From Photorhabdus heterorhabditis (GTDB lineage Bacteria > Pseudomonadota > Gammaproteobacteria > Enterobacterales > Enterobacteriaceae): 53,301 bases of DNA. Positions 2,385 to 38,366 of the stretch are shown here, piece after piece. A model generated the notes under the pieces. That model saw only the letters and a program-made list of their open reading frames with translations. It was not told where the DNA came from and did not search any database. The stretch spans positions 1-53,301 of the forward strand of contig NZ_RCWA01000033.1 in the NCBI RefSeq assembly GCF_018448905.1, given 5' to 3'. The translations under genes were made by a program, and so were the position numbers. Every line of letters begins with the position of its first letter. Positions within the stretch are counted from its first letter, which is position 1.

Positions 2385-3733
2385 GTGCACTGCCGTACAG
2401 GCAGCTTAGAAATGCATATAAATGGTATTCCAGAGCATGACGGCGTGCACTGCCGTACAGGCAGCTTAGAAATCCGATAGTCGATGTGACTAACTATGTG
2501 TTACGTGCACTGCCGTACAGGCAGCTTAGAAACCTCTGACCGTGAAGCGGTTATGTAAAGCGTTGTGCACTGCCGTACAGGCAGCTTAGAAAGGCAGGAA
2601 AATATTTACTCTCAGGTTCAAGCTGTGCACTGCCGTACAGGCAGCTTAGAAAGCTCTTCGGGTTCTGCTGCCAGATTTCGGCACGTGCACTGCCGTACAG
2701 GCAGCTTAGAAATCGGCCATCATTCTATGAGAAAGATGCTCATCGTGCACTGCCGTACAGGCAGCTTAGAAAGTCTTCTACAAAGCTCATCCAAGAGTTC
2801 TTACGTGCACTGCCGTACAGGCAGCTTAGAAAACATTGTGCTCGCCAAATTCAAATTGTTTTCGGTGCACTGCCGTACAGGCAGCTTAGAAACAGTCGCT
2901 GCAACGCTGGCAGGAAAAACACGCGTGCACTGCCGTACAGGCAGCTTAGAAACTTTACTGAATAACGCCACCGCGCCAAAACTGGGTGCACTGCCGTACA
3001 GGCAGCTTAGAAAATCAAGAGTAAATGCCGAATAGACGTCAATAGGTGCACTGCCGTACAGGCAGCTTAGAAAAATCTCGTCTTGTATCTTCTGACGAAC
3101 TTCAAGTGCACTGCCGTACAGGCAGCTTAGAAAGAGGGTACGATGATCCCGGCAGGGACGATACTGTGCACTGCCGTACAGGCAGCTTAGAAAATTAATT
3201 CTGAGAAATTACTTTCAGATAACCAGTGCACTGCCGTACAGGCAGCTTAGAAAAGTAGTTATTGATGTGATTTGTATACTCAGCTGTGCACTGCCGTACA
3301 GGCAGCTTAGAAAGAAATCCCCCTCGAACATATCAAACGCGAGAAGTGCACTGCCGTACAGGCAGCTTAGAAATGCTTTATAGAAAAACAATCATCATTA
3401 TTGAAGTGCACTGCCGTACAGGCAGCTTAGAAATAAAGATTACGATATGTTCATAGCTGAGGGTGGTGCACTGCCGTACAGGCAGCTTAGAAAATAAGGT
3501 TGAATAAAAACGCCTCCATATCTTGGTGCACTGCCGTACAGGCAGCTTAGAAAGATAGTCAATTTCAGCCCCGTCTGTCACCGTTGTGCACTGCCGTACA
3601 GGCAGCTTAGAAAATGACTAGCGAATTCGAAAACGGACGCAGAACGTGCACTGCCGTACAGGCAGCTTAGAAACAGAAGTTGGATTTAAGGTATATGCAT
3701 CATACGTGCACTGCCGTACAGGCAGTTTATAAA
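2385..3733 (+). CRISPR. Type I-F CRISPR array, 23 repeats and 22 spacers
   Basis: A 28-nt repeat starts at 2385 and recurs every 60 nt: 2385, 2445, 2505 ... 2925, then 2986, 3046 ... 3706. It begins GTGCACTGCC, has the stem CTGCC-GTACA-GGCAG and ends in the handle CTTAGAAA, which is the type I-F repeat form. Spacers are 32 nt except spacer 10 (2953-2985, 33 nt). The first 22 repeats appear identical; the last (3706-3733) is degenerate with TTTATAAA at its 3' end, marking the trailer. All spacers differ from each other. No cas gene is present in the window, so the array depends on a Cas I-F (Csy) set elsewhere, or is orphan. Spacer targets were not searched. Confidence 0.98.
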
Positions 3734-27795: not shown

Positions 27796-28764
27796 ATGAA
27801 TAAAGAGACAGATACAGACAGTAAAGTGGGTTATGTACCGACATTCCATAAATCCTACCTGCATCCTCGTTACTGGGGAATATGGGCGGGAGTGGGGGTG
27901 TTGGCTGGGCTAGCTTACGTTCCAGTTAAACTGCGTGATCCTTTGTTGGCGAAAATAGGATGGTTGGCGGGTAAGTTTGCAAAAGGGGCGCGGCGCAGAG
28001 CGAGAATAAACCTGTGTTACTGTATGCCGGAACTGACTGGGCAGCAGCGCGAAGCATTGATTGATAAAATGTTTTCTACCGCGCCTCAACCTTTTGTCAT
28101 GCTAGCTGAAATGTATTTACGTGGTACAAAATCAGCGTTAAACCGGACTCATTGGCATGGCGAAGAGATTACTCTTCAACTGAAAGAGCAGGGAAAAAAC
28201 ATTATTTTCATGGTTCCTCATGGCTGGGCTGTGGATATTCCGGCGATATTGCTGACAGCGAATGGACAGAAAGCAGCGGCTATGTTTCATCATCAAAAAA
28301 ACCCAGTATCAGATTATTTGTGGAATAAAGCTCGCAGTCAATTTGGTGGTCGTTTACATTCCCGTGATGCGGGAATTAAACCTTTTATCGCCTCTGTTCG
28401 CCAGGGTTTCTGGGGATATTATCTTCCTGATCAGGATCATGGTGAAGAACACAGTGAATTTGTTGATTTCTTTGCAACTTATAAAGCAACATTACCGGCA
28501 ATTGGGCGATTGATGAAAGTTTGTCGTGCGGCTATTGTTCCCTTGTTTCCGGTTTATAATTACCGTACTCACCAGCTTGATATTTATATTCGTCCACCAA
28601 TGGATGATATTGATGGCAAAGATGATGCTTTTATTGCTCGTCGGATGAATGAAGAATTAGAACAATTAGTGCGACCAAATCCTGAACAGTACACCTGGAT
28701 ACTTAAATTGCTTAAGACCCGGAAACAGGGTGATATTGAGCCGTATAATAGAGAAGATCTGTGA
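27796..28764 (+). CDS. lpxM: Lipid A biosynthesis myristoyltransferase LpxM (MsbB)
   Basis: 322 residues, E. coli LpxM length. Adds the last secondary acyl chain to Kdo2-lipid A at the inner membrane. One N-terminal membrane segment (~27-43) and the LPLAT catalytic H-x4-D motif His142/Asp147 (PHGWAVD). Downstream NYRTHQLDIYIRPPMDDI is conserved. Separate from mepM by a terminator. In E. coli pykA comes next on the opposite strand; here ~7.5 kb containing the darobactin cluster intervenes. Confidence 0.96.
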   Translation: MNKETDTDSKVGYVPTFHKSYLHPRYWGIWAGVGVLAGLAYVPVKLRDPLLAKIGWLAGKFAKGARRRARINLCYCMPELTGQQREALIDKMFSTAPQPFVMLAEMYLRGTKSALNRTHWHGEEITLQLKEQGKNIIFMVPHGWAVDIPAILLTANGQKAAAMFHHQKNPVSDYLWNKARSQFGGRLHSRDAGIKPFIASVRQGFWGYYLPDQDHGEEHSEFVDFFATYKATLPAIGRLMKVCRAAIVPLFPVYNYRTHQLDIYIRPPMDDIDGKDDAFIARRMNEELEQLVRPNPEQYTWILKLLKTRKQGDIEPYNREDL

Positions 28765-28969: not shown

Positions 28970-29012
28970 ACCCCTAATGCTGGACATAATATATCCAGTG
29001 ATTAGGGGGGGT
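28970..29012. terminator. Large imperfect palindrome between lpxM and darE
   Basis: ACCCCTAAT plus CTGGA (28970-28984) pairs with TCCAG plus ATTAGGGG (28994-29008), with small internal mismatches. It lies between the convergent lpxM and dar operon ends and may end transcription from either side, although the T-tracts are weak. Confidence 0.55.
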
Positions 29013-29057: not shown

Positions 29058-30347
29058 TTATGCGGCTATGGTTTGTTTGATTGTCTCTAACAGACCGCCC
29101 GTTCCACAGCAAGAACCATCATAGTTTGGATTATGCTTCCTGTTAGTCACTCGATCGTGGGGGCATCCGCCATTACATAAATGAAACCATTTGCATTGAT
29201 GCATTTTTTCGTATGATTCCCTCTCCTCTATAAGATGGTTTTTATTTGTATCTGATTTAACTAATAAATTCCCAAGATCATTATCGATAATTGAACCATA
29301 ATTATTCCCTTCGGCACCAACATATTTGTCACATGCTGATACAGTACCGTTGGGTTCCAATGTAATGATTTCCTGAGAGCAGTTACCAGCCCAATAACAA
29401 TCTGATATTTTCTTTTGAGATGATTTAATACTGTCAATAAATCCATCAAACAGACGAATATTTATTTTACCTTTATAACCATCCCACCAGACCCGGAAAA
29501 CATTAGAAAGGAAATTGATATAATTATGGTAAGTGATATAACTTCCTCCAGGATCGTCACCGGGTTGACACCGGTTATCTGGAACAATATTCAGAAATTC
29601 GATATCCGTTAAACCAATTTCGTAAAAATAAGAGAGCATTTTTTCGATATTAGATTCGTAAACATCTCTATCGACGACAACCAGTGCACCGTAAGGTATG
29701 CCATAACTTCTCAATTTCTTCATACCCGCAGCAACCTTATGAGATGTTGGTCTTCCTCTATAATCTAATCTTCTGCTATCGTGTATTTCTGGAATACCGT
29801 CAACGCTTATACCGACTCCCATTCCGATACCTTTAAGGAATACCAACCAGTCTTCGGGAATGTTGACGGCATTGGTTTGTACCGAATTAGTGATAACTTG
29901 ATCTGGCTTTTTAAATTGCTCCTGCAACCAGATTAATTTCTTAAAATAATTAACATTCAATAAAGTGACTTCACCACCATGCCAAACGAATTCGAATCGC
30001 TTTATATTGGGTATGGATAAGAAACGGTGCATAGAGCGCATCAAGTTAAAAAACGTTAAGGTATTCCCTTTTCCTTCAGCCCAGGAGTGACAATAAGTAC
30101 ACCTCAAGTTGCAAAGCCTTGTAGCTTTAACAACAACAACTAACTTATTGGCATTGACCACTTCAGGGCTAAATTGTATACCAATTTCCTCATTATATAG
30201 AGCCAGTTCATCATCATCTAATATTTTTTCGGCAGGAATTTCACCAATAATTCTACAAGCTAGTTGCCTATAATTAATTTTAGGCGATTTCTTGAGAATC
30301 GATGATCCGTCTGAATCTAAATGTTTTATTGGGATTATAGTATCCAT
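29058..30347 (-). CDS. darE: Darobactin maturase DarE (radical SAM/SPASM)
   Basis: 429 residues from ATG 30347, chosen because AAGGAG lies 6 nt upstream; an in-frame start at 30392 lacks this. The radical SAM cluster motif is Cys79-x3-Cys83-x2-Cys86 (CNLRCTYC). C-terminal SPASM cysteines follow (CYWAGNC, VSACDKY, CKWFHLC, GGCPHD, SCC) and would hold auxiliary [4Fe-4S] clusters. In darobactin synthesis this enzyme installs the W1-W3 ether and the W3-K5 carbon-carbon cross-links. Assignment rests on linkage to the two DarA precursors and the DarBCD exporter; with two different cores present it must accept both. Last gene of the operon. Confidence 0.93.
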   Translation of the reverse strand: MDTIIPIKHLDSDGSSILKKSPKINYRQLACRIIGEIPAEKILDDDELALYNEEIGIQFSPEVVNANKLVVVVKATRLCNLRCTYCHSWAEGKGNTLTFFNLMRSMHRFLSIPNIKRFEFVWHGGEVTLLNVNYFKKLIWLQEQFKKPDQVITNSVQTNAVNIPEDWLVFLKGIGMGVGISVDGIPEIHDSRRLDYRGRPTSHKVAAGMKKLRSYGIPYGALVVVDRDVYESNIEKMLSYFYEIGLTDIEFLNIVPDNRCQPGDDPGGSYITYHNYINFLSNVFRVWWDGYKGKINIRLFDGFIDSIKSSQKKISDCYWAGNCSQEIITLEPNGTVSACDKYVGAEGNNYGSIIDNDLGNLLVKSDTNKNHLIEERESYEKMHQCKWFHLCNGGCPHDRVTNRKHNPNYDGSCCGTGGLLETIKQTIAA

Positions 30348-30388
30348 AACGAACTCCTTCATGTTATTTATTCTCAAACAAGTTATGC

Positions 30389-31060
30389 TCAAACAAGCAA
30401 ATGGCCATCCTTCATTGTTAATATTCTGTCAGAAAATGAAGCCGCTTCTACGGAATGGGTTACCATAACAATAGTCGTGCCGTTTTCATTCAGATTTTTC
30501 AGTGAAGACAAGATATTTTGACCATTTATGCTATCCAGGTTCCCCGTTGGTTCATCAGCTAATAAAATAGTCGGGTTTGAGATCATTGCCCTGGCGATCG
30601 CGACACGTTGCTGTTGCCCACCAGATAATTGTATCGGTTTATGATTTCCCCGATTTTCTAATCCAAAATTATTTATTGTATCAAGTACTTTATTCTTTCT
30701 CTGCTTTTTAGAAAAACCTCTATATTTCAAAGGTAATTCTATATTTTCAAATACAGTTAGATTGGGTAATAGATTGAATGATTGAAAAATATAGCCAATA
30801 AATTCGCGTCTGAATGATATTTTCTCAGAATATTTCATCTTTAAAATATTATTATTATTCAGTGTCAATTGACCACTGTCGATGGTTTCGAACATACCAA
30901 TAACATTCAGTAATGTTGATTTCCCTGATCCAGAGGCTCCCATTATAGAAATAAACTCACCTTTATCTATATTGAGATTTATTTCATTCAAAACATTTGT
31001 CTGAATGAATTTCGTTTTATATGATTTACAGACATTCATCATGCTAATCATTTTATTCAA
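30389..31060 (-). CDS. darD: Darobactin export ABC ATPase DarD
   Basis: 223 residues, MacB/LolD-like ATPase. Walker [10 protein letters not shown] (41-49), Q-loop [10 protein letters not shown], signature LSGGQQQR, Walker [11 protein letters not shown]-loop THSVE. It overlaps the darC stop by 8 bp if the first ATG (31060) is used; ATG 31051 (MISMM) is an alternative. Provides energy for the permease DarB. AT-rich like the rest of the cluster. Confidence 0.92.
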
Positions 31061-32306
31061 TCCTTACAGTATCATTATTAACTAATCTATTCTTACCAAA
31101 GCTAACTATTGTTTGCCCTTCAGTAACACCATTTTTGATCTCAATATCAGAGCCATTATCTTGGCCGGTGGAGACCTGAATGCGCTGGGCAATTTTTTTA
31201 TCTGGATGGTAAATAAACACATAGCTCTTGTTGTCAATGGAAAACACCATAGATGAAGGTACAGAGAATATTTTCCTATCTTCATCAAGTTTAATGATAA
31301 TATCAACCGATTGACCTCGTTTGAAGTCAAGAGCTTTCTTATCTTCTAATTCAAATCTAACTTTGAAAGTTCCATTATTCACCTCAGATGAAATCAATTT
31401 CACAAGCAAAGGTGTTTTTCCGTTGTTATAGACTAAATTAGCAGATGAGTTGTATGTTATTTTTTTCAAGTAGTATTCGTTGATCTCTGATTCGAAATAA
31501 AAACTTGATAAATCATCAACAATGGCTATTTGATCACCGGGTTTTAACCGTTGACCTAAAATTAAATCTAATGAACTTATATTACCTGCTATAGGTGATT
31601 TTATTGAAAGTTGTTCAAAACCATTTTCAATGATTTCAGAGAGTTTTCTTTGTTTTTCAACAAATTCGTCTATCTCTTTTAATTGCTTTGATATGTCACG
31701 ATCTTTATCATTTTTTAATTTTTTGTAAAATAAATAAACATCATGCCAATAGTCTTTTTTAATCTTTAAATCAGAAATGGTTTCTTTAGAAACATAATTT
31801 TTATTTACCAGGTTATTATATCTTCTTAACTTATCTTCTGTTTCTTTTAACTCTTTGGATGCTTCTAAGAATCTGTTATTGATATCTCTATAATCAGATT
31901 GCAAGTTTATTCTTATATTTATTAAATTATTCAGCTTGTCTGTAACGTCTGCTAACATGGCAGAATTATTCAATGTGAAATTAAAATTAGATAATTTAAC
32001 TATTTCTTCTCCCTTTAAGACATTTTGTGATGGTTTTTTCATTATATCGGTAACGATTCCGCCAATCTCTGTTGAGATCGATACACTTTTATTAGGAACA
32101 ACAACCGCTCTTGTTTTTAAAATATCACTATCTATTTTGCTACTGATACGAAATTTTTTGACCTCATTTCCATTTACGGAAGCTTCTTTAGATGAAATAA
32201 CATAATAAGCAATAAATACGACAAATGAAATAAAAGCGATAAAGAAAATAAGAATTAATAACTTCTCTTTATTATGTGTGCCTTTTTTTCTGATTTCTAT
32301 ATCCAT
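31053..32306 (-). CDS. darC: Darobactin export membrane-fusion protein DarC (HlyD/MacA-like)
   Basis: 417 residues from ATG 32306; a GTG at 32318, overlapping the darB stop as GTGA, is an alternative. One N-terminal membrane anchor (LLILIFFIAFISFVVFIAYYVI, ~17-38 region), lipoyl/barrel-sandwich halves (SISTEIGGIVTDI; LSIKSPIAGNISSL), and a long coiled-coil hairpin of charged heptads between them. This is the periplasmic adaptor that would bridge DarB to an outer-membrane TolC-type channel, which is not encoded here. Confidence 0.92.
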   Translation of the reverse strand: MDIEIRKKGTHNKEKLLILIFFIAFISFVVFIAYYVISSKEASVNGNEVKKFRISSKIDSDILKTRAVVVPNKSVSISTEIGGIVTDIMKKPSQNVLKGEEIVKLSNFNFTLNNSAMLADVTDKLNNLINIRINLQSDYRDINNRFLEASKELKETEDKLRRYNNLVNKNYVSKETISDLKIKKDYWHDVYLFYKKLKNDKDRDISKQLKEIDEFVEKQRKLSEIIENGFEQLSIKSPIAGNISSLDLILGQRLKPGDQIAIVDDLSSFYFESEINEYYLKKITYNSSANLVYNNGKTPLLVKLISSEVNNGTFKVRFELEDKKALDFKRGQSVDIIIKLDEDRKIFSVPSSMVFSIDNKSYVFIYHPDKKIAQRIQVSTGQDNGSDIEIKNGVTEGQTIVSFGKNRLVNNDTVRIE

Positions 32307-32314
32307 GATTAATC

Positions 32315-34684
32315 TCACAAAAATTTAGTAGCAGATAATTTTCTATAATTCATCAGATAGGTAGTGATCATTATAATAACGGTGAATATCATTGTCGCAG
32401 ATAAGGCGAGAGCGCTATATACAAAAGAATCAGTGTAAATCACATTATATTCGCCGAGTAAATAAACCAAAATGGTTCTTCCTGATATATATGCTATGAA
32501 AATTGATGCAATTATAGGAATGACGCTTTTCGATAAAAAATGGATAAGATTTGTATAAATAGAACCCCCAATAGACTCCATTATACTTAATTCCTTTTTC
32601 ATATGGTTGAAATCAGTCATGCTGGTAGTAAAGCAGGCTATAATCAATAATAATATTGAGAAAATAGCGACAGCAGATGATAATTTTATCACTTTTAAAT
32701 AATTATCATAATAAGAACTGAATAAATCACTGGTTAAATTAATGTCATTTTTATCAAAGCCATGTGCTAACAATTCATTAAATACCGCTGAAAGGTTATT
32801 TATGCTATTTAAATTTAGTGAAGCATATTTACTCTGATCCTTTTTTATAAAAATAACTATTGGCTTGAATGGTTCATCTATAGCACCTAAATTAAAATCT
32901 TCTATAATCTGAATAAACCTGATTTGGATTTTTTTACCTTCGATTGTATACCAATAGTAGTTGTTAAAAATATCATCGTACTTGATAATTCCATTTTGTT
33001 TCAAAAACTCTTTTGTAACTAATGCATTAACAACATCCGTATTATCGCTTTGGTATATTCGTTTGTCATTACCCGCTAATATCTTCATTTTCCAAACATC
33101 AGTAAAGTTCTCGTCTGCAATAATGACATTTGAAGATATATAATTATTTATATCTTGTTGACCAGAATAATAAATAGTTATATTGTCTCTTGACATATCA
33201 AATGGTTGCCAGTTACTAAGTGTTATTTTCGAAGTGCTATATTTGCTAGTAAGGTCATAGCTTAATTCATTAATACTTAATTTCTTATTATTGTCATTAT
33301 TAATGGTGATCGATATTGTTTTGGTATTATCATATGGAGTATGTACATCAACAAGATGGATATACTGATTAACTAATCCAGTGACTAAATAGATAGAGAT
33401 GCCAGAAACAAGCAATTGAATAGCTAATGATGATTTCCTAAACCAAGAGGACAAGGTTGACTCATATCTCATATCCATTTTTCGGTTTCTCTGATAAATA
33501 TAGAAGCGTAATGAGAATGAAAAATGTATTGATGAAACAAGAATAAACGCAATAAGAATAGAAAATACCCCGAGATATATTAAATTGTTTATTTCTAAAG
33601 TGTAAAATAGGTTTTTTATATATAGGGATGTATTGAATATGGTTATGATAAGTAATAAGAAAATAAGAGTGGAAAATACCATTCTTACTAACATTGTTGG
33701 TAGCGAATCACAAATAATATTGAAGGTTGATGCACCCAACGCTTTTTTTAATTGATAGATATCCCTTTTTTCTGATGAATCAGCGGAAGTTAAATTATAA
33801 TAATTTGTTAACGCAGCAAATAAAATAAATGCGAAGGCTATATATGAGCTATAGATGACTTCCTTTGATAAACCAATAGCAATTTCATCAGGCAATTTAT
33901 CCTGATAATGAATGTCTTTTAATTTCTTTAATGATAAATGAATAAATTCACTGGCGGTAAATGGCGCACCGGGAAGATTGGATGCTTTTGTTTCAATGAT
34001 ATTTTTGAGAAATGTATCTTTATTAAATATTGTGTTTTTATCAGTAAATTTCACAAAAATATAAGCGTGTGTATCATACCAATTGAATATTTCTTTATTA
34101 TAGTCTTTTATAAGGTTTGGTTTGAATGAAATAATAGCATCCATATTAAGACTAGAGTCATGACGTCTTTCTAAGATATCCTTGATGATATAGGTTTCAT
34201 TATCCAGAGTAATAGATTTTCCTTTGGGATCTTCCAAGCCGAGATATCGGTTGTTGAAATCTTTTGTGATATAAATTTCATTTGCTCCCAGAGTGTTATC
34301 TGCTTTCTTAAAGGGAGATAAGGTATTCAGGAATTCATGGCTCACGGCAAATACCGGAACTTTAGTGATCTTTTTACCTTGTAGTTCAATGGTCGTATTA
34401 AGTTTGAAAATGTAGTCTACATGATTTACTCTTGCATCTTTTCTTAGTTCCTCAATGAGTGGCAGTGGAGATTTTGCCGATCTTACTTTTTCTCCGTTAG
34501 GCAAATTGAATGTGGTTTCTATCCGGTAAAGGTTGCTATTATCCTGGTAATAGTTATCGATTTGAGTATCTGAATAGAAGGCGGTAGAAAGTAAATAAAG
34601 GGCTAAAATTGCTATTGACACCGAGAGTATCGATACCGATATGTTGAAACGCTTCATGGATTTTGAGAGGTTAATAGCGTTCAT
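32315..34684 (-). CDS. darB: Darobactin export permease DarB (FtsX/MacB-type ABC permease)
   Basis: 789 residues. Topology is a duplicated FtsX-type unit: N-terminal helix (~12-35), extracytoplasmic domain, three helices (~275-395), a further helix near 420, second extracytoplasmic domain, then three C-terminal helices (~680-780). LKKALGASTFN and ELSIMESIGGSIYTN are coupling-helix-like segments facing the ATPase. It forms an exporter with DarC and DarD and probably gives self-protection by removing the BamA-targeting product. The ribosome site is weak (AAGGAA is ~17 nt away). An ERIC separates it from darA1. Confidence 0.92.
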   Translation of the reverse strand: MNAINLSKSMKRFNISVSILSVSIAILALYLLSTAFYSDTQIDNYYQDNSNLYRIETTFNLPNGEKVRSAKSPLPLIEELRKDARVNHVDYIFKLNTTIELQGKKITKVPVFAVSHEFLNTLSPFKKADNTLGANEIYITKDFNNRYLGLEDPKGKSITLDNETYIIKDILERRHDSSLNMDAIISFKPNLIKDYNKEIFNWYDTHAYIFVKFTDKNTIFNKDTFLKNIIETKASNLPGAPFTASEFIHLSLKKLKDIHYQDKLPDEIAIGLSKEVIYSSYIAFAFILFAALTNYYNLTSADSSEKRDIYQLKKALGASTFNIICDSLPTMLVRMVFSTLIFLLLIITIFNTSLYIKNLFYTLEINNLIYLGVFSILIAFILVSSIHFSFSLRFYIYQRNRKMDMRYESTLSSWFRKSSLAIQLLVSGISIYLVTGLVNQYIHLVDVHTPYDNTKTISITINNDNNKKLSINELSYDLTSKYSTSKITLSNWQPFDMSRDNITIYYSGQQDINNYISSNVIIADENFTDVWKMKILAGNDKRIYQSDNTDVVNALVTKEFLKQNGIIKYDDIFNNYYWYTIEGKKIQIRFIQIIEDFNLGAIDEPFKPIVIFIKKDQSKYASLNLNSINNLSAVFNELLAHGFDKNDINLTSDLFSSYYDNYLKVIKLSSAVAIFSILLLIIACFTTSMTDFNHMKKELSIMESIGGSIYTNLIHFLSKSVIPIIASIFIAYISGRTILVYLLGEYNVIYTDSFVYSALALSATMIFTVIIMITTYLMNYRKLSATKFL

Positions 34685-34718
34685 TTTGTTGCTAACGTTC
34701 CTTTTCTTGAGATTAAAC

Positions 34719-34823
34719 TATACCTGTTATCTTTCAAGTTGCCTCGTCAGTCACAGAGTTATCTATGCTCCTGGGGATTCGCTCTCTTGCTGTCGCGATC
34801 CATCTTGAAATCTATTGGGTATA
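34719..34823. repeat. ERIC element with internal deletion, inside the dar operon
   Basis: Starts TATACCTGTTATC and ends TTGGGTATA but is only 105 bp: about 22 bp of one arm (after AAGTTGCCTC) is missing. It lies 35 bp upstream of darB, between precursor and exporter genes. Confidence 0.9.
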
Positions 34824-35094
34824 TAGTATTTAGATACCGATATCTTCGTCTCTGTTTCTGAGTATTTCACATAATATGCATGAAGATCCAACTAAAATGT
34901 TTTTTTCTGTCAATATTGATTTTTTATCGTGTTTTTACTCTTTTTAGTTACTGGAATGTATTATATTTTTATGTGGAAATTAGAATGTTTAATAATATTA
35001 GTGGTAAAAGGTAGTAATATTCAAGGGTAAAATTTTAAACGTAAAACACTTATCTATATTGTTCAAATTATCATATTAACATGATGAGATTATT
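34824..35094. other. AT-rich intercistronic stretch between darB and darA1
   Basis: Together with the ERIC and the stem-loop at 35095-35129 this makes a 480-bp gap between precursor and exporter genes. No reading frame is supported. It contains T-runs near 34899-34925 that, on the minus strand, are A-runs, so no terminator in the operon direction is evident here. Confidence 0.5.
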
Positions 35095-35129
35095 TAGGGT
35101 AATCCTAATGAATTCATAGGGTTACCCTA
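35095..35129 (-). other. Intercistronic stem-loop just after darA1
   Basis: TAGGGTAA (35095-35102) pairs with TTACCCTA (35122-35129), and the interior CCTA-TGAATTCA-TAGG can extend the stem. It starts 36 bp past the darA1 stop on the minus strand. There is no T-run after it in the operon direction, so it looks more like an mRNA 3'-end stabiliser or processing/attenuation site than a classic terminator. Confidence 0.6.
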
Positions 35130-35164
35130 TGGTTAAGGTTTAATAAATGTCTTAATTTGAAGAA

Positions 35165-35341
35165 TTAAATTTCCTGAAAGCTTTTCGACCAATTCCAGGC
35201 AGTGATTTCAGGAATTTTTGGTTTGCTGCTTAATTCATTCAGCGCTTTCTCAGTAATTGAAAGTTCGGTTTCTTTGAATGATGCAGCGAGGGAATTTAAT
35301 GCTTCTTGAGTTTTGCAAGTTTCAACTAAGATATTTTGCAT
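35165..35341 (-). CDS. darA: Darobactin precursor peptide DarA, copy 1 (core WNWSKSF, darobactin A)
   Basis: 58 residues from ATG 35341 (GGAG 8-9 nt upstream; an ATG four codons earlier overlaps that site). Leader MQNILVETCKTQ ... IPEITA, core W49-N-W-S-K-S-F55, tail QEI. The core is identical to darobactin A, the heptapeptide antibiotic that binds the lateral gate of BamA in Gram-negative outer membranes. Residues W49, W51 and K53 are those cross-linked by DarE. It shares with copy 2 the segments MQNI, ETCK, SLxxSFKxTELSITEKAL, IPEI and AWNW. Confidence 0.96.
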   Translation of the reverse strand: MQNILVETCKTQEALNSLAASFKETELSITEKALNELSSKPKIPEITAWNWSKSFQEI

Positions 35342-35458
35342 GATAATCTCCATTTTGTTTTACAGATGGTTAATGAGATAACTTCCTATTTCCTTCGGAT
35401 AAAAACATGGTCAGGAAATTCTTACTTCCATATGGAAAATGCTGATATCAACGTCCAA

Positions 35459-35487
35459 TTACTAATACTATGTTGAATAATTGTCAA
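35459..35487 (-). promoter_or_regulatory. Promoter of darA copy 1
   Basis: On the minus strand TTGACA (-35, 35482-35487) is followed after 17 bp by TAGTAA (-10, 35459-35464). The -35 is a perfect consensus. The sequence around it is conserved in front of copy 2. It predicts a 5' untranslated leader of ~110 nt. Confidence 0.65.
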
Positions 35488-35593
35488 TGTGTTTTTCTGT
35501 TTTTTATGACTCAATCTAGAAGATAAAAATTAATTCTTTTAGATATGTCAAGTTATTACTTTGCGATTAAAGATTAATAACATCCCTTTTTAT

Positions 35594-35767
35594 TTAGATA
35601 GGGAATCTTTTTGTCCAGTTCCAGGCATTAATTTCAGGGATCTCGGTATTATTGGCTAATTCGTCCAATGCCTTTTCCGTAATTGATAGTTCTGTCCCTT
35701 TGAATGATGTGACAAGGGAATTTAGTAACTCTTGATCTTTACAGGTTTCAATAGGAATGTTTTGCAT
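35594..35767 (-). CDS. darA: Darobactin-family precursor peptide DarA, copy 2 (core WNWTKRF)
   Basis: 57 residues from ATG 35767 with CGGAGA 7 nt upstream; short enough to be missed by length-filtered gene calling. Leader MQNIPIETCKDQ ... IPEINA, core W49-N-W-T-K-R-F55, tail PI. The three cross-linked positions (W49, W51, K53) are kept; Thr and Arg replace Ser at core positions 4 and 6. This is the core I know as darobactin B. About 60-65% identical to copy 1 by eye, offset by 426 bp: a tandem duplication that has diverged. First gene of the dar operon on the minus strand. Confidence 0.94.
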   Translation of the reverse strand: MQNIPIETCKDQELLNSLVTSFKGTELSITEKALDELANNTEIPEINAWNWTKRFPI

Positions 35768-35892
35768 GATATTCTCCGCTCACATTTTCAGATGATTAGT
35801 TAAGTTATTGATTATTACCTTTAAATACAAATGTATTATCAGGATGTCTCTTGTTCTATATCCATATGAAAAATGCTGATATCAGCATTTAA

Positions 35893-35921
35893 TTAATAGT
35901 ACTATGTTAAAGAATTGTCAA
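35893..35921 (-). promoter_or_regulatory. Promoter of darA copy 2 (dar operon)
   Basis: Minus strand TTGACA (35916-35921), 17-bp spacer, TATTAA (35893-35898). Both boxes are near consensus. The flanking ACATTGACAATT ... AACATAGTA is shared with the copy 1 promoter, so the duplicated unit included promoter and gene. Confidence 0.72.
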
Positions 35922-35979
35922 TGTGTTTTGTTGTCTTTTATGACATCGCTTAAGAAGTAAAAATCTGGATTTTTGTATG

Positions 35980-36106
35980 TATACCCAATAGATTTCAAAT
36001 TGCAGCGCGGCGGCAAGAGAACGCATCCCCAGGAGCATAGATAACTCTGTGACTGGGGTAAGTGAACGCAGCCAACAAAGCAGCAACTTGAAAGATGAAG
36101 GGTATA
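35980..36106. repeat. ERIC element, 127 bp
   Basis: Complete copy from TATACCCAATAG to AAGGGTATA, between the dar promoter and the pykA terminator. The remaining DNA to pykA (36107-36330) is AT-rich with no supported gene. Confidence 0.92.
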
Positions 36107-36330
36107 TCAGATAAGTATCGTCTTGTAGGATTTAATTTTATAAGTCATGAGAATTGATTTAAGCCGTTATTATTACTGTTATTTAAGGTAAATGTATTTA
36201 GCCTGAATTTAATATCATGTTTTATAATATAAAATTAAAATATTTCTACAGTAAAATATTAGCAGAGATCAAAATTATTGGATTATGATCATTAAATTAC
36301 CGATTAAATTTCTGGTCGATATCAATATAA

Positions 36331-36379: not shown

Positions 36380-37822
36380 TTATTCCACTTCAAGAATACG
36401 GCAGGTGTTAGTGCTGCCAATTGTCCCCATTTGGTCGCCTTGAGTAACCAGAACAAGGTCGCCGGAAATCAGATAACCTTTATCACGCAGACGGTTAACG
36501 GCCTCATTAGCGGCTGTTATGCCGTCAGTATGACTGCTGCAATAAACGGGTGTAACGCCACGGTAAAGCGCCGTTTGATTCAACGTTTTTTCATGACGCG
36601 ACATAGAGAAAATGTGCAAACCAGAACTGATGCGGGACATCATCCGAGTGGTGCGACCTGATTCGGTCATTGCGATAATTGCCTTCACACCTCTTAGATG
36701 GTTTGCTGCATACATGGTAGACATGGCAATGGCTTCTTCGGTGCTTTCGAAAATAGTGTCTAACCGATGTTTGGATACATTGAGTCCCGGCATTTTTTCT
36801 GCCCCCAAACAGACCTGAGCCATGGCAGCAACCGTTTCAGCCGGGTATTGTCCTGCGGCTGTCTCAGCGGAAAGCATCACTGCGTCAGTACCGTCAAGCA
36901 CTGCGTTCGCTACATCCATAACTTCTGCACGGGTAGGCATTGGATTGGTAATCATGGATTCCATCATCTGGGTAGCGGTAATGACGACGCGATTCAATTG
37001 GCGGGCACGACGGATCAATTTTTTCTGAACACCGACCAGTTCTGGATCACCGATTTCTACGCCGAGATCACCACGGGCAACCATTACAACATCGGAAGCC
37101 AGAATAATTTCGTCAATGATTTCATCACTACTGACGGCTTCTGCACGTTCAACTTTTGCCACGATTTGCGTTTCGCAGCCGGCATCCCGCGCCAGACGGC
37201 GGGCATAATTGAGATCTTCGCCAGTGCGAGGGAAAGAGACGGCGAGGTAATCAACGCCAATTTTGGCGGCGGTGATAATGTCTTCTTTATCCTTTTCGGT
37301 CAGAGCTTCAGCGGATAAGCCTCCACCGAGTTTGTTGATTCCTTTATTGTTAGACAGCGGGCCGCCAACAGTGACTTCCGTGAATACTTTCATGCCCTGA
37401 ACTTCTAATACTTTCAGTTGAACACGTCCATCATCCAGCAGCAGAATATCACCCGGTACAACATCAGCGGGTAATCCCTTGTAATCGATACCGACTTTCT
37501 CTTTATTGCCTTCGCCTTTGTTAAGGTTGGCATCAAGTAGAAATTTATCTCCGACATTCAGGAAAATTTTGCCCTCTTTAAACGTTGATACGCGGATTTT
37601 AGGTCCCTGAAGATCGCCAAGAATAGCGACATGGCGGCCCAGGCGGGCTGCTATTTCGCGGACTTTATTGGCACGTTGGAGGTGATCTTCTGCCGTGCCG
37701 TGGGAAAAGTTGAGGCGGACTACGTTTGCACCAGCAATAATAATTTTTTCAAGGTTATTATCGCGGTCGGTAGCCGGACCAAGGGTAGTAACAATCTTCG
37801 TTCTTCTGAGCCGTCTGGACAT
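36380..37822 (-). CDS. pykA: Pyruvate kinase II
   Basis: 480 residues, the E. coli PykA length. Final step of glycolysis: phosphoenolpyruvate to pyruvate with ATP formation, AMP-activated in this isozyme. N-terminus [19 protein letters not shown], and the family active-site motif with [12 protein letters not shown] plus [14 protein letters not shown] ribosome site lies 8 nt upstream of the ATG. An ERIC sits 31 bp upstream of the start codon, so it either carries or is flanked by the promoter. Separated from lpxM by the dar insertion and from hexR by a secretion/effector island. Confidence 0.97.
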
Positions 37823-37852
37823 GTATTACTCCGTTGACCTGTGAGTATTGGT

Positions 37853-37975
37853 TATACCCGTTATCTTTCAAGTTGCTTCTTTATTGGCTGTACTCACCCC
37901 GGTCACAGAGTTATCTCTGCTCCCAGGAATTCGCTCCCTTGCCGTCGCGATCCATCTTGAAATCCATTGGGTATA
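37853..37975. repeat. ERIC element (123 bp) in the pykA upstream region
   Basis: TATACCCGTT to TTGGGTATA with a 4-bp deletion in one arm. It is 31 bp from the pykA start codon, so it may be within the 5' untranslated mRNA. Confidence 0.9.
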
Positions 37976-38366
37976 GATAAAAATAATCAATAATCTATTA
38001 ATTATCCTATAAAACGAGTAAGAAAACCTCTTCGGCAATCCAACTATCAAGGCTGGTTACAGATTACATTTTTAAAATTACCGTTAGTATATGCTATCAG
38101 TCTAACAATTTAATAAATAGTGAACAAAAACACAGCATTATTCTAGAAGTTATTTATCTAGTATACGTGCCATTTGTTCATCTGTTTATTTTGTTCCTAT
38201 TTATATAATGGCTTAAATATTTGTATATATTAGCATTTTTATGCTAAATGGCGCAGTGTGGAAGGTAGTAAGGCTTCCTATGGCATACTGATCGGGGATA
38301 ACCGATGATGTTTGATCGGTATTTTTGGATGAATGTCGTCACCAAGAAGAAGGGGCAGTGATATTG
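37976..38366. other. Gene-free AT-rich stretch before the effector island
   Basis: About 390 bp with no supported frame. From ~38285 onward it resembles the sequence preceding the intact effector gene at 39006 (TTTTTGGATGAATGTCG against TTTCTGGGTGTAGTCG), and GATCGGGGATAACCG at ~38297 resembles the 3' half of a type I-E CRISPR repeat. Confidence 0.5.

Follow-up and report, generated by a model that had tools for sequence, protein, structure and literature searches.

Darobactins are heptapeptides that serve as leads against Gram-negative pathogens; in culture, the natural clusters can stay silent. In the closest described systems, the maturase DarE alone installs both crosslinks on the precursor DarA, DarBCD being dispensable for bicycle formation (PMC9055067), and an engineered system yielded darobactin B, which binds BamA like darobactin A (PMC8694152). 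The darobactin B precursor accompanies the darobactin A precursor in multiple Photorhabdus strains (PMC8694152), and dynobactin is likewise aimed at BamA (PMC11547657). Here, we analyzed a 53,301-nucleotide (nt) stretch of Photorhabdus heterorhabditis DNA (contig NZ_RCWA01000033.1; the window hereafter), which holds a darobactin (dar) cluster between lpxM and pykA. The locus is very probably the published two-precursor cluster of P. heterorhabditis or a near strain, predicted to make darobactins A and B through a single DarE. As the precursor pair is printed in PMC8694152, the cluster was already known; it has itself been published and adds no new chemistry. Leads beyond the known cluster are a conserved 26-base-pair (bp) element, the pattern of cluster loss across the genus and the presence of a dynobactin-type system in the same genome.

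On the minus strand, the interval between lpxM and pykA carries two darA genes, darB, darC, darD and darE, each with one terminal stop (Table 1). All six encoded proteins exceed their curated NCBIfam cut-offs, in agreement with the original prediction of a full darobactin cluster at this site. That prediction had also listed, on one strand, a precursor with core WNWSKSF, a permease, an adaptor, an ATPase and a radical SAM/SPASM protein with a CNLRCTYC motif, and profiles and motifs bear this out. Its account of a single precursor was right about the WNWSKSF gene but omitted the second precursor at 35594-35767, although this lies inside the interval it described; the end of that interval, 35921, coincides with the opening base of the -35 hexamer in the promoter-like site of the second precursor. 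It spoke of six proteins and listed five, so the second precursor may in fact have been seen.

The two precursors, hereafter A and B after their darobactin cores, are letter-identical to the P. heterorhabditis VMG pair in Table 1 of PMC8694152, B corresponding to VMG (1) and A, from its picked start, to VMG (2). The B precursor sits 252 bases upstream of the A precursor, and each has its own upstream region. A degenerate back-translation of the core matched twice in the 5.05-Mb genome, both times at the dar locus, and the reversed-pattern control gave no match. The predicted products are thus named darobactin A and darobactin B, for which the calculated [M+2H]2+ values of 483.7089 and 525.2512, respectively, are the same as those printed in PMC8694152. 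The locus combines three features of a darobactin cluster: a WxWxKxF-type core near the precursor C-terminus, a DarE-type maturase and adjoining DarB, DarC and DarD genes.

The DarE model was the best for the radical SAM protein, with the DarW (507.4 bits, cut-off 650) and DynA (181.4 bits, cut-off 450) models both staying below their thresholds. In a tree, it grouped with six other Photorhabdus DarE proteins on a branch parting them from all other rows with a support of 100; DynA was too distant for placement. Membership in a different maturase clade, which the original prediction had named as grounds for rejection, was thus looked for and not found. We also considered self-protection through an altered BamA target. 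Among 13 Photorhabdus genomes, the window's own included, 113 of 795 BamA columns vary, and none separates the seven genomes with the cluster (dar-plus) from the six without it (dar-minus). This comparison neither supports nor rules out other routes of self-protection, such as export.

The A and B units form a tandem repeat, with 70% identity over a 228-nt block (coding sequence and nearby leader) and 86% over an 84-nt upstream block. B-type copies of four other species are 75.7-92.2% identical to the B unit of the window and 69.4-71.9% to its A unit, and this better match to B indicates that the duplication predates these species. We consider it unlikely that darobactin A is the sole product here and the B precursor a decaying duplicate no longer used by DarE or the cell. 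Such decay would fit the wider record: B-type copies occur in five of the seven dar-plus genomes and three of these are altered. That of P. thracensis has an open frame but a changed core, WKWSKNL (DAR F in PMC8694152); that of P. namnaonensis (L007, around 4557) has a WNWIKKF core and no ATG start; and that of P. luminescens is interrupted by a stop within its leader. No B-type copy is present in P. australis or P. khanii. The P. asymbiotica copy and that of the window, however, retain an intact frame, the WNWTKRF core, a ribosome-binding-site (RBS)-like sequence, the promoter-like site and the 26-bp element, with few nonsynonymous changes between them. Neither the WNWIKKF core nor a darobactin pseudogene in Photorhabdus was found in the searched literature, whose coverage excluded many subscription papers.

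Several points weigh against a locus that makes both peptides. The ratio of nonsynonymous to synonymous rates (dN/dS) between the two intact B copies, 0.06, is based on 9 differences only (7 synonymous, 2 nonsynonymous), and DarD exceeds its cut-off narrowly (380.4 against 375 bits). Moreover, according to section 5 of PMC8694152, neither a congruent activity match nor a mass was obtained from five strains (not named there) predicted to produce alternative darobactins and grown in three media. The original prediction had called the locus functional since every frame is intact; function is not readable from open frames.

Taken together, we favor the two-product reading, under which the precursor gene has been duplicated in tandem and its two copies, each behind a separate promoter-like site, would encode the darobactin A and B precursors. 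On each core, one and the same DarE would then form the W1-W3 ether and the W3-K5 carbon bond, according to the chemistry in the literature; as DarE-only maturation and engineered darobactin B set the same path (PMC9055067, PMC8694152), the locus should give both peptides. Leader and follower would be trimmed by a releasing peptidase (described as unknown in PMC10726357), the product would be exported by DarBCD, and the heptapeptides would block BamA of competing Gram-negative bacteria, role and target again being those given in the literature.

Upstream of each precursor lies a promoter-like site, followed just downstream by a copy of the 26-bp double-palindromic element (Table 1). A consensus promoter scan listed 32 sites compared to 43.4 in shuffles, that is, fewer than chance, and listed neither dar site because it demands a T at the last -10 position; we call both sites promoter-like on the strength of their conservation. 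Searching the 13 genomes for GYTGATATCAGCAYTTTYCATATGGA with up to three mismatches returned nine matches, all upstream of dar precursors, and none for the reversed control. The GYTGATATCAGCAYTTTYCATATGGA element is present in all seven dar-plus genomes, with two copies in the window's own genome and in P. asymbiotica, and in none of the six dar-minus genomes. In P. thracensis, only the first (F-type) copy is preceded by it, and in P. luminescens and P. namnaonensis the B-type copy lacks it. As the element was found by reading these very alignments, its matches at dar loci do not count as independent evidence, and its weight comes from absence elsewhere and conservation across species. We also considered a wider regulon, for which the following counts speak neither way. 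With up to one mismatch, the palindrome TGCTGATATCAGCA occurs at ten places in the own genome (reversed control, one), the exact one being upstream of the B precursor; four of the nine others were examined, by position only, and two of these (L097, L100, position 1501) fall outside stop-to-stop frames of at least 100 amino acids (aa). A role as an RNA structure was rejected, as shuffled sequences folded just as well as the two leader regions (z -0.37 and 0.29). Since leader folding is not unusual, our best guess is that the element is a putative DNA operator near the transcription start. As a concrete handle on the possible switching-on of the dar cluster, it is the most useful lead from this locus.

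We then traced the cluster across the genus. A DarE search (E ≤ 1e-60) gave a match in 8 of the 13 genomes, seven with at least 94% identity and one (G008) with only 49%, leaving five without a match. The flanks and gene order at lpxM-pykA are common to six other Photorhabdus loci. Where a DarE of this type is missing (six genomes), lpxM and pykA are 144 to 1127 bases apart, and four of these genomes retain dar fragments there: part of darD in G002 and G005, a 35-nt darD piece in G001, with the same junction as in G002 and G005, and the 3' end of darE in G006 (91% over 32 residues). These fragments at the same site mark the absence as deletion, so that at least four of the six absences represent loss, and the different scar of G006 requires at least two deletions. 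Between lpxM and pykA of G007 and G008, we found no dar gene remnant. In a three-gene tree of the 13 genomes, rooted at the midpoint, each of the three main groups includes dar-plus members; the same groups reappear in a darBCDE tree of the seven dar-plus genomes. Several nodes are weak (63 to 84). G002, whose junction is that of G001 and G005, groups with the dar-plus P. luminescens (97), which may reflect recombination or tree error.

A recent horizontal arrival in scattered species, with dar-minus genomes that never had the cluster, would agree with its low G+C content (31.8% versus 42.3% in the remaining window; a review, PMC11547657, takes low G+C to indicate acquisition), with the dar cluster on a Vibrio plasmid typed conjugative and with the two remnant-free dar-minus genomes, but is very improbable given the identical lpxM-pykA site in all seven dar-plus genomes, the matching dar and host groups and the remaining fragments. 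The cluster was possibly acquired before the radiation of the genus. Tentatively, and with doubts that slightly outweigh our confidence, we propose an ancestral, repeatedly lost trait whose darA promoters may be controlled by the 26-bp operator and one regulator; the duplication of promoter, operator and precursor here might let one signal release darobactins A and B together, beside a dynobactin-type system against the same BamA.

Table 1. Positions of the predicted dar genes and nearby sequence features in the window.
Feature	Position	Strand	Remarks
darE, radical SAM/SPASM maturase	29058-30347	-	429 aa from picked start; NF038005 742 bits, cut-off 650
darD, ATP-binding cassette (ABC) ATPase	30389-31051	-	220 aa from picked start; NF038007 380.4 bits, cut-off 375
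darC, periplasmic adaptor	31053-32306	-	417 aa from picked start; NF038010 494.8 bits, cut-off 450
darB, permease	32315-34684	-	789 aa; NF038008 961.2 bits, cut-off 700
A precursor (darobactin A core WNWSKSF, follower QEI)	35165-35341	-	58 aa; NF038004 70 bits (62-aa open reading frame, ORF), cut-off 45
B precursor (darobactin B core WNWTKRF, follower PI)	35594-35767	-	57 aa; NF038004 67.5 bits, cut-off 45
A-precursor promoter-like site (TTGACA, 17 nt, TAGTAA)	35459-35487	-	Called on conservation
B-precursor promoter-like site (TTGACA, 17 nt, TATTAA)	35893-35921	-	Retained in the B units of P. asymbiotica and P. thracensis
26-bp double-palindromic element, A copy	35427-35452	-	Shortly after the A promoter-like site
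26-bp double-palindromic element, B copy	35861-35886	-	Shortly after the B promoter-like site
Candidate terminator hairpin 3' of darE, before lpxM	28971-29008	.	Strong; fold z -4.38, 0/200 shuffles as good
ERIC-like repeat, gap between A precursor and darB	34719-34823	.	Repeat families D3, D4, I2; RNA fold z -2.08, 7/200 shuffles as good

By profile search, the cluster is bounded by lpxM (27796-28764, plus strand; TIGR02208 432 bits, cut-off 336.05) and pykA (36380-37822, minus strand; TIGR01064 569 bits, cut-off 306.4). Gene starts were picked from RBS-like sequences and profile ends; for DarC, DarD, DarE and the A precursor, they lie downstream of the mechanical ORF starts. Pfam assigned DarE to Radical_SAM and DarB to MacB_PCD above the cut-off and FtsX just below it, and returned no family for either precursor. 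In the long ORF of DarE, the CNLRCTYC motif is at residue 94. A Walker A motif and LSGGQ are present in DarD; the Walker B pattern was unmatched, the letters there being ILLADE. The candidate terminator hairpin is absent from the six sites of the terminator scan, and Rfam gave nothing at gathering level in the dar region. Besides the repeat in Table 1, further copies lie at 35980-36106, upstream of the B unit, and at 37846-37983; we take all three to be ERIC-like, and similar copies sit at differing places in several related dar loci. Weak hits to V_AS5 (39.9 bits, gathering 96) and Ysr49 (28, gathering 95) at 35979-36141 were attributed to the ERIC-like repeat. Far from the cluster, a clustered regularly interspaced short palindromic repeat (CRISPR) array at 2385-3733 has 23 matches to Rfam CRISPR-DR4.

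Among known systems, the monocyclic daropeptide clusters (cluster IV in PMC9055067) share a related radical SAM maturase with the window but differ in their core and, per that paper, have no DarBCD. Three other Photorhabdus genomes (L022, L023, L024) encode radical SAM proteins 49-50% identical to DarE beside short ORFs ending in QWTFRF, and from their sequences these loci look like the monocyclic clusters of PMC9055067. The dynobactin system resembles the window in its radical SAM/SPASM maturase, DynA, and its BamA-directed product, but the window's DarE stays far under the DynA cut-off. Elsewhere in the own genome (G000:C23:25521-26588; L083 5516-6709), a separate DynA-type maturase scores 610 bits (cut-off 450), and a short ORF just downstream (L083, around 6874) ends in WNSNVHSYRF, presumably the dynobactin A core. 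The DynA cut-off is exceeded in three of the 13 genomes. Outside Photorhabdus, Candidatus Symbiopectobacterium, Cedecea and Klebsiella sp. BIGb0407 (L009 5322-5534, L011 5281-5469 and L012 5285-5473, respectively) have precursors with a WNWSKGF core, which was not found in the same searched literature; these loci carry darB-darE relatives, with DarE over its cut-off and the precursors under that of NF038004 (28.6 to 34.8 versus 45 bits). On the Vibrio crassostreae plasmid (L086, NZ_AP025478.1 26766-42040), traI is close to the dar cluster, and darE is followed by an additional ABC transporter gene. Closest to the window is the P. heterorhabditis VMG cluster (PMC8694152), which lists the same two precursors, B first and A second, and shows no difference in a comparison of the precursor sequences alone. 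The P. khanii cluster (PMC9055067; L008), in turn, shares with the window its site, its darA-darB-darC-darD-darE order and a DarE of 94% identity but, unlike the window, has a single precursor, for darobactin A.

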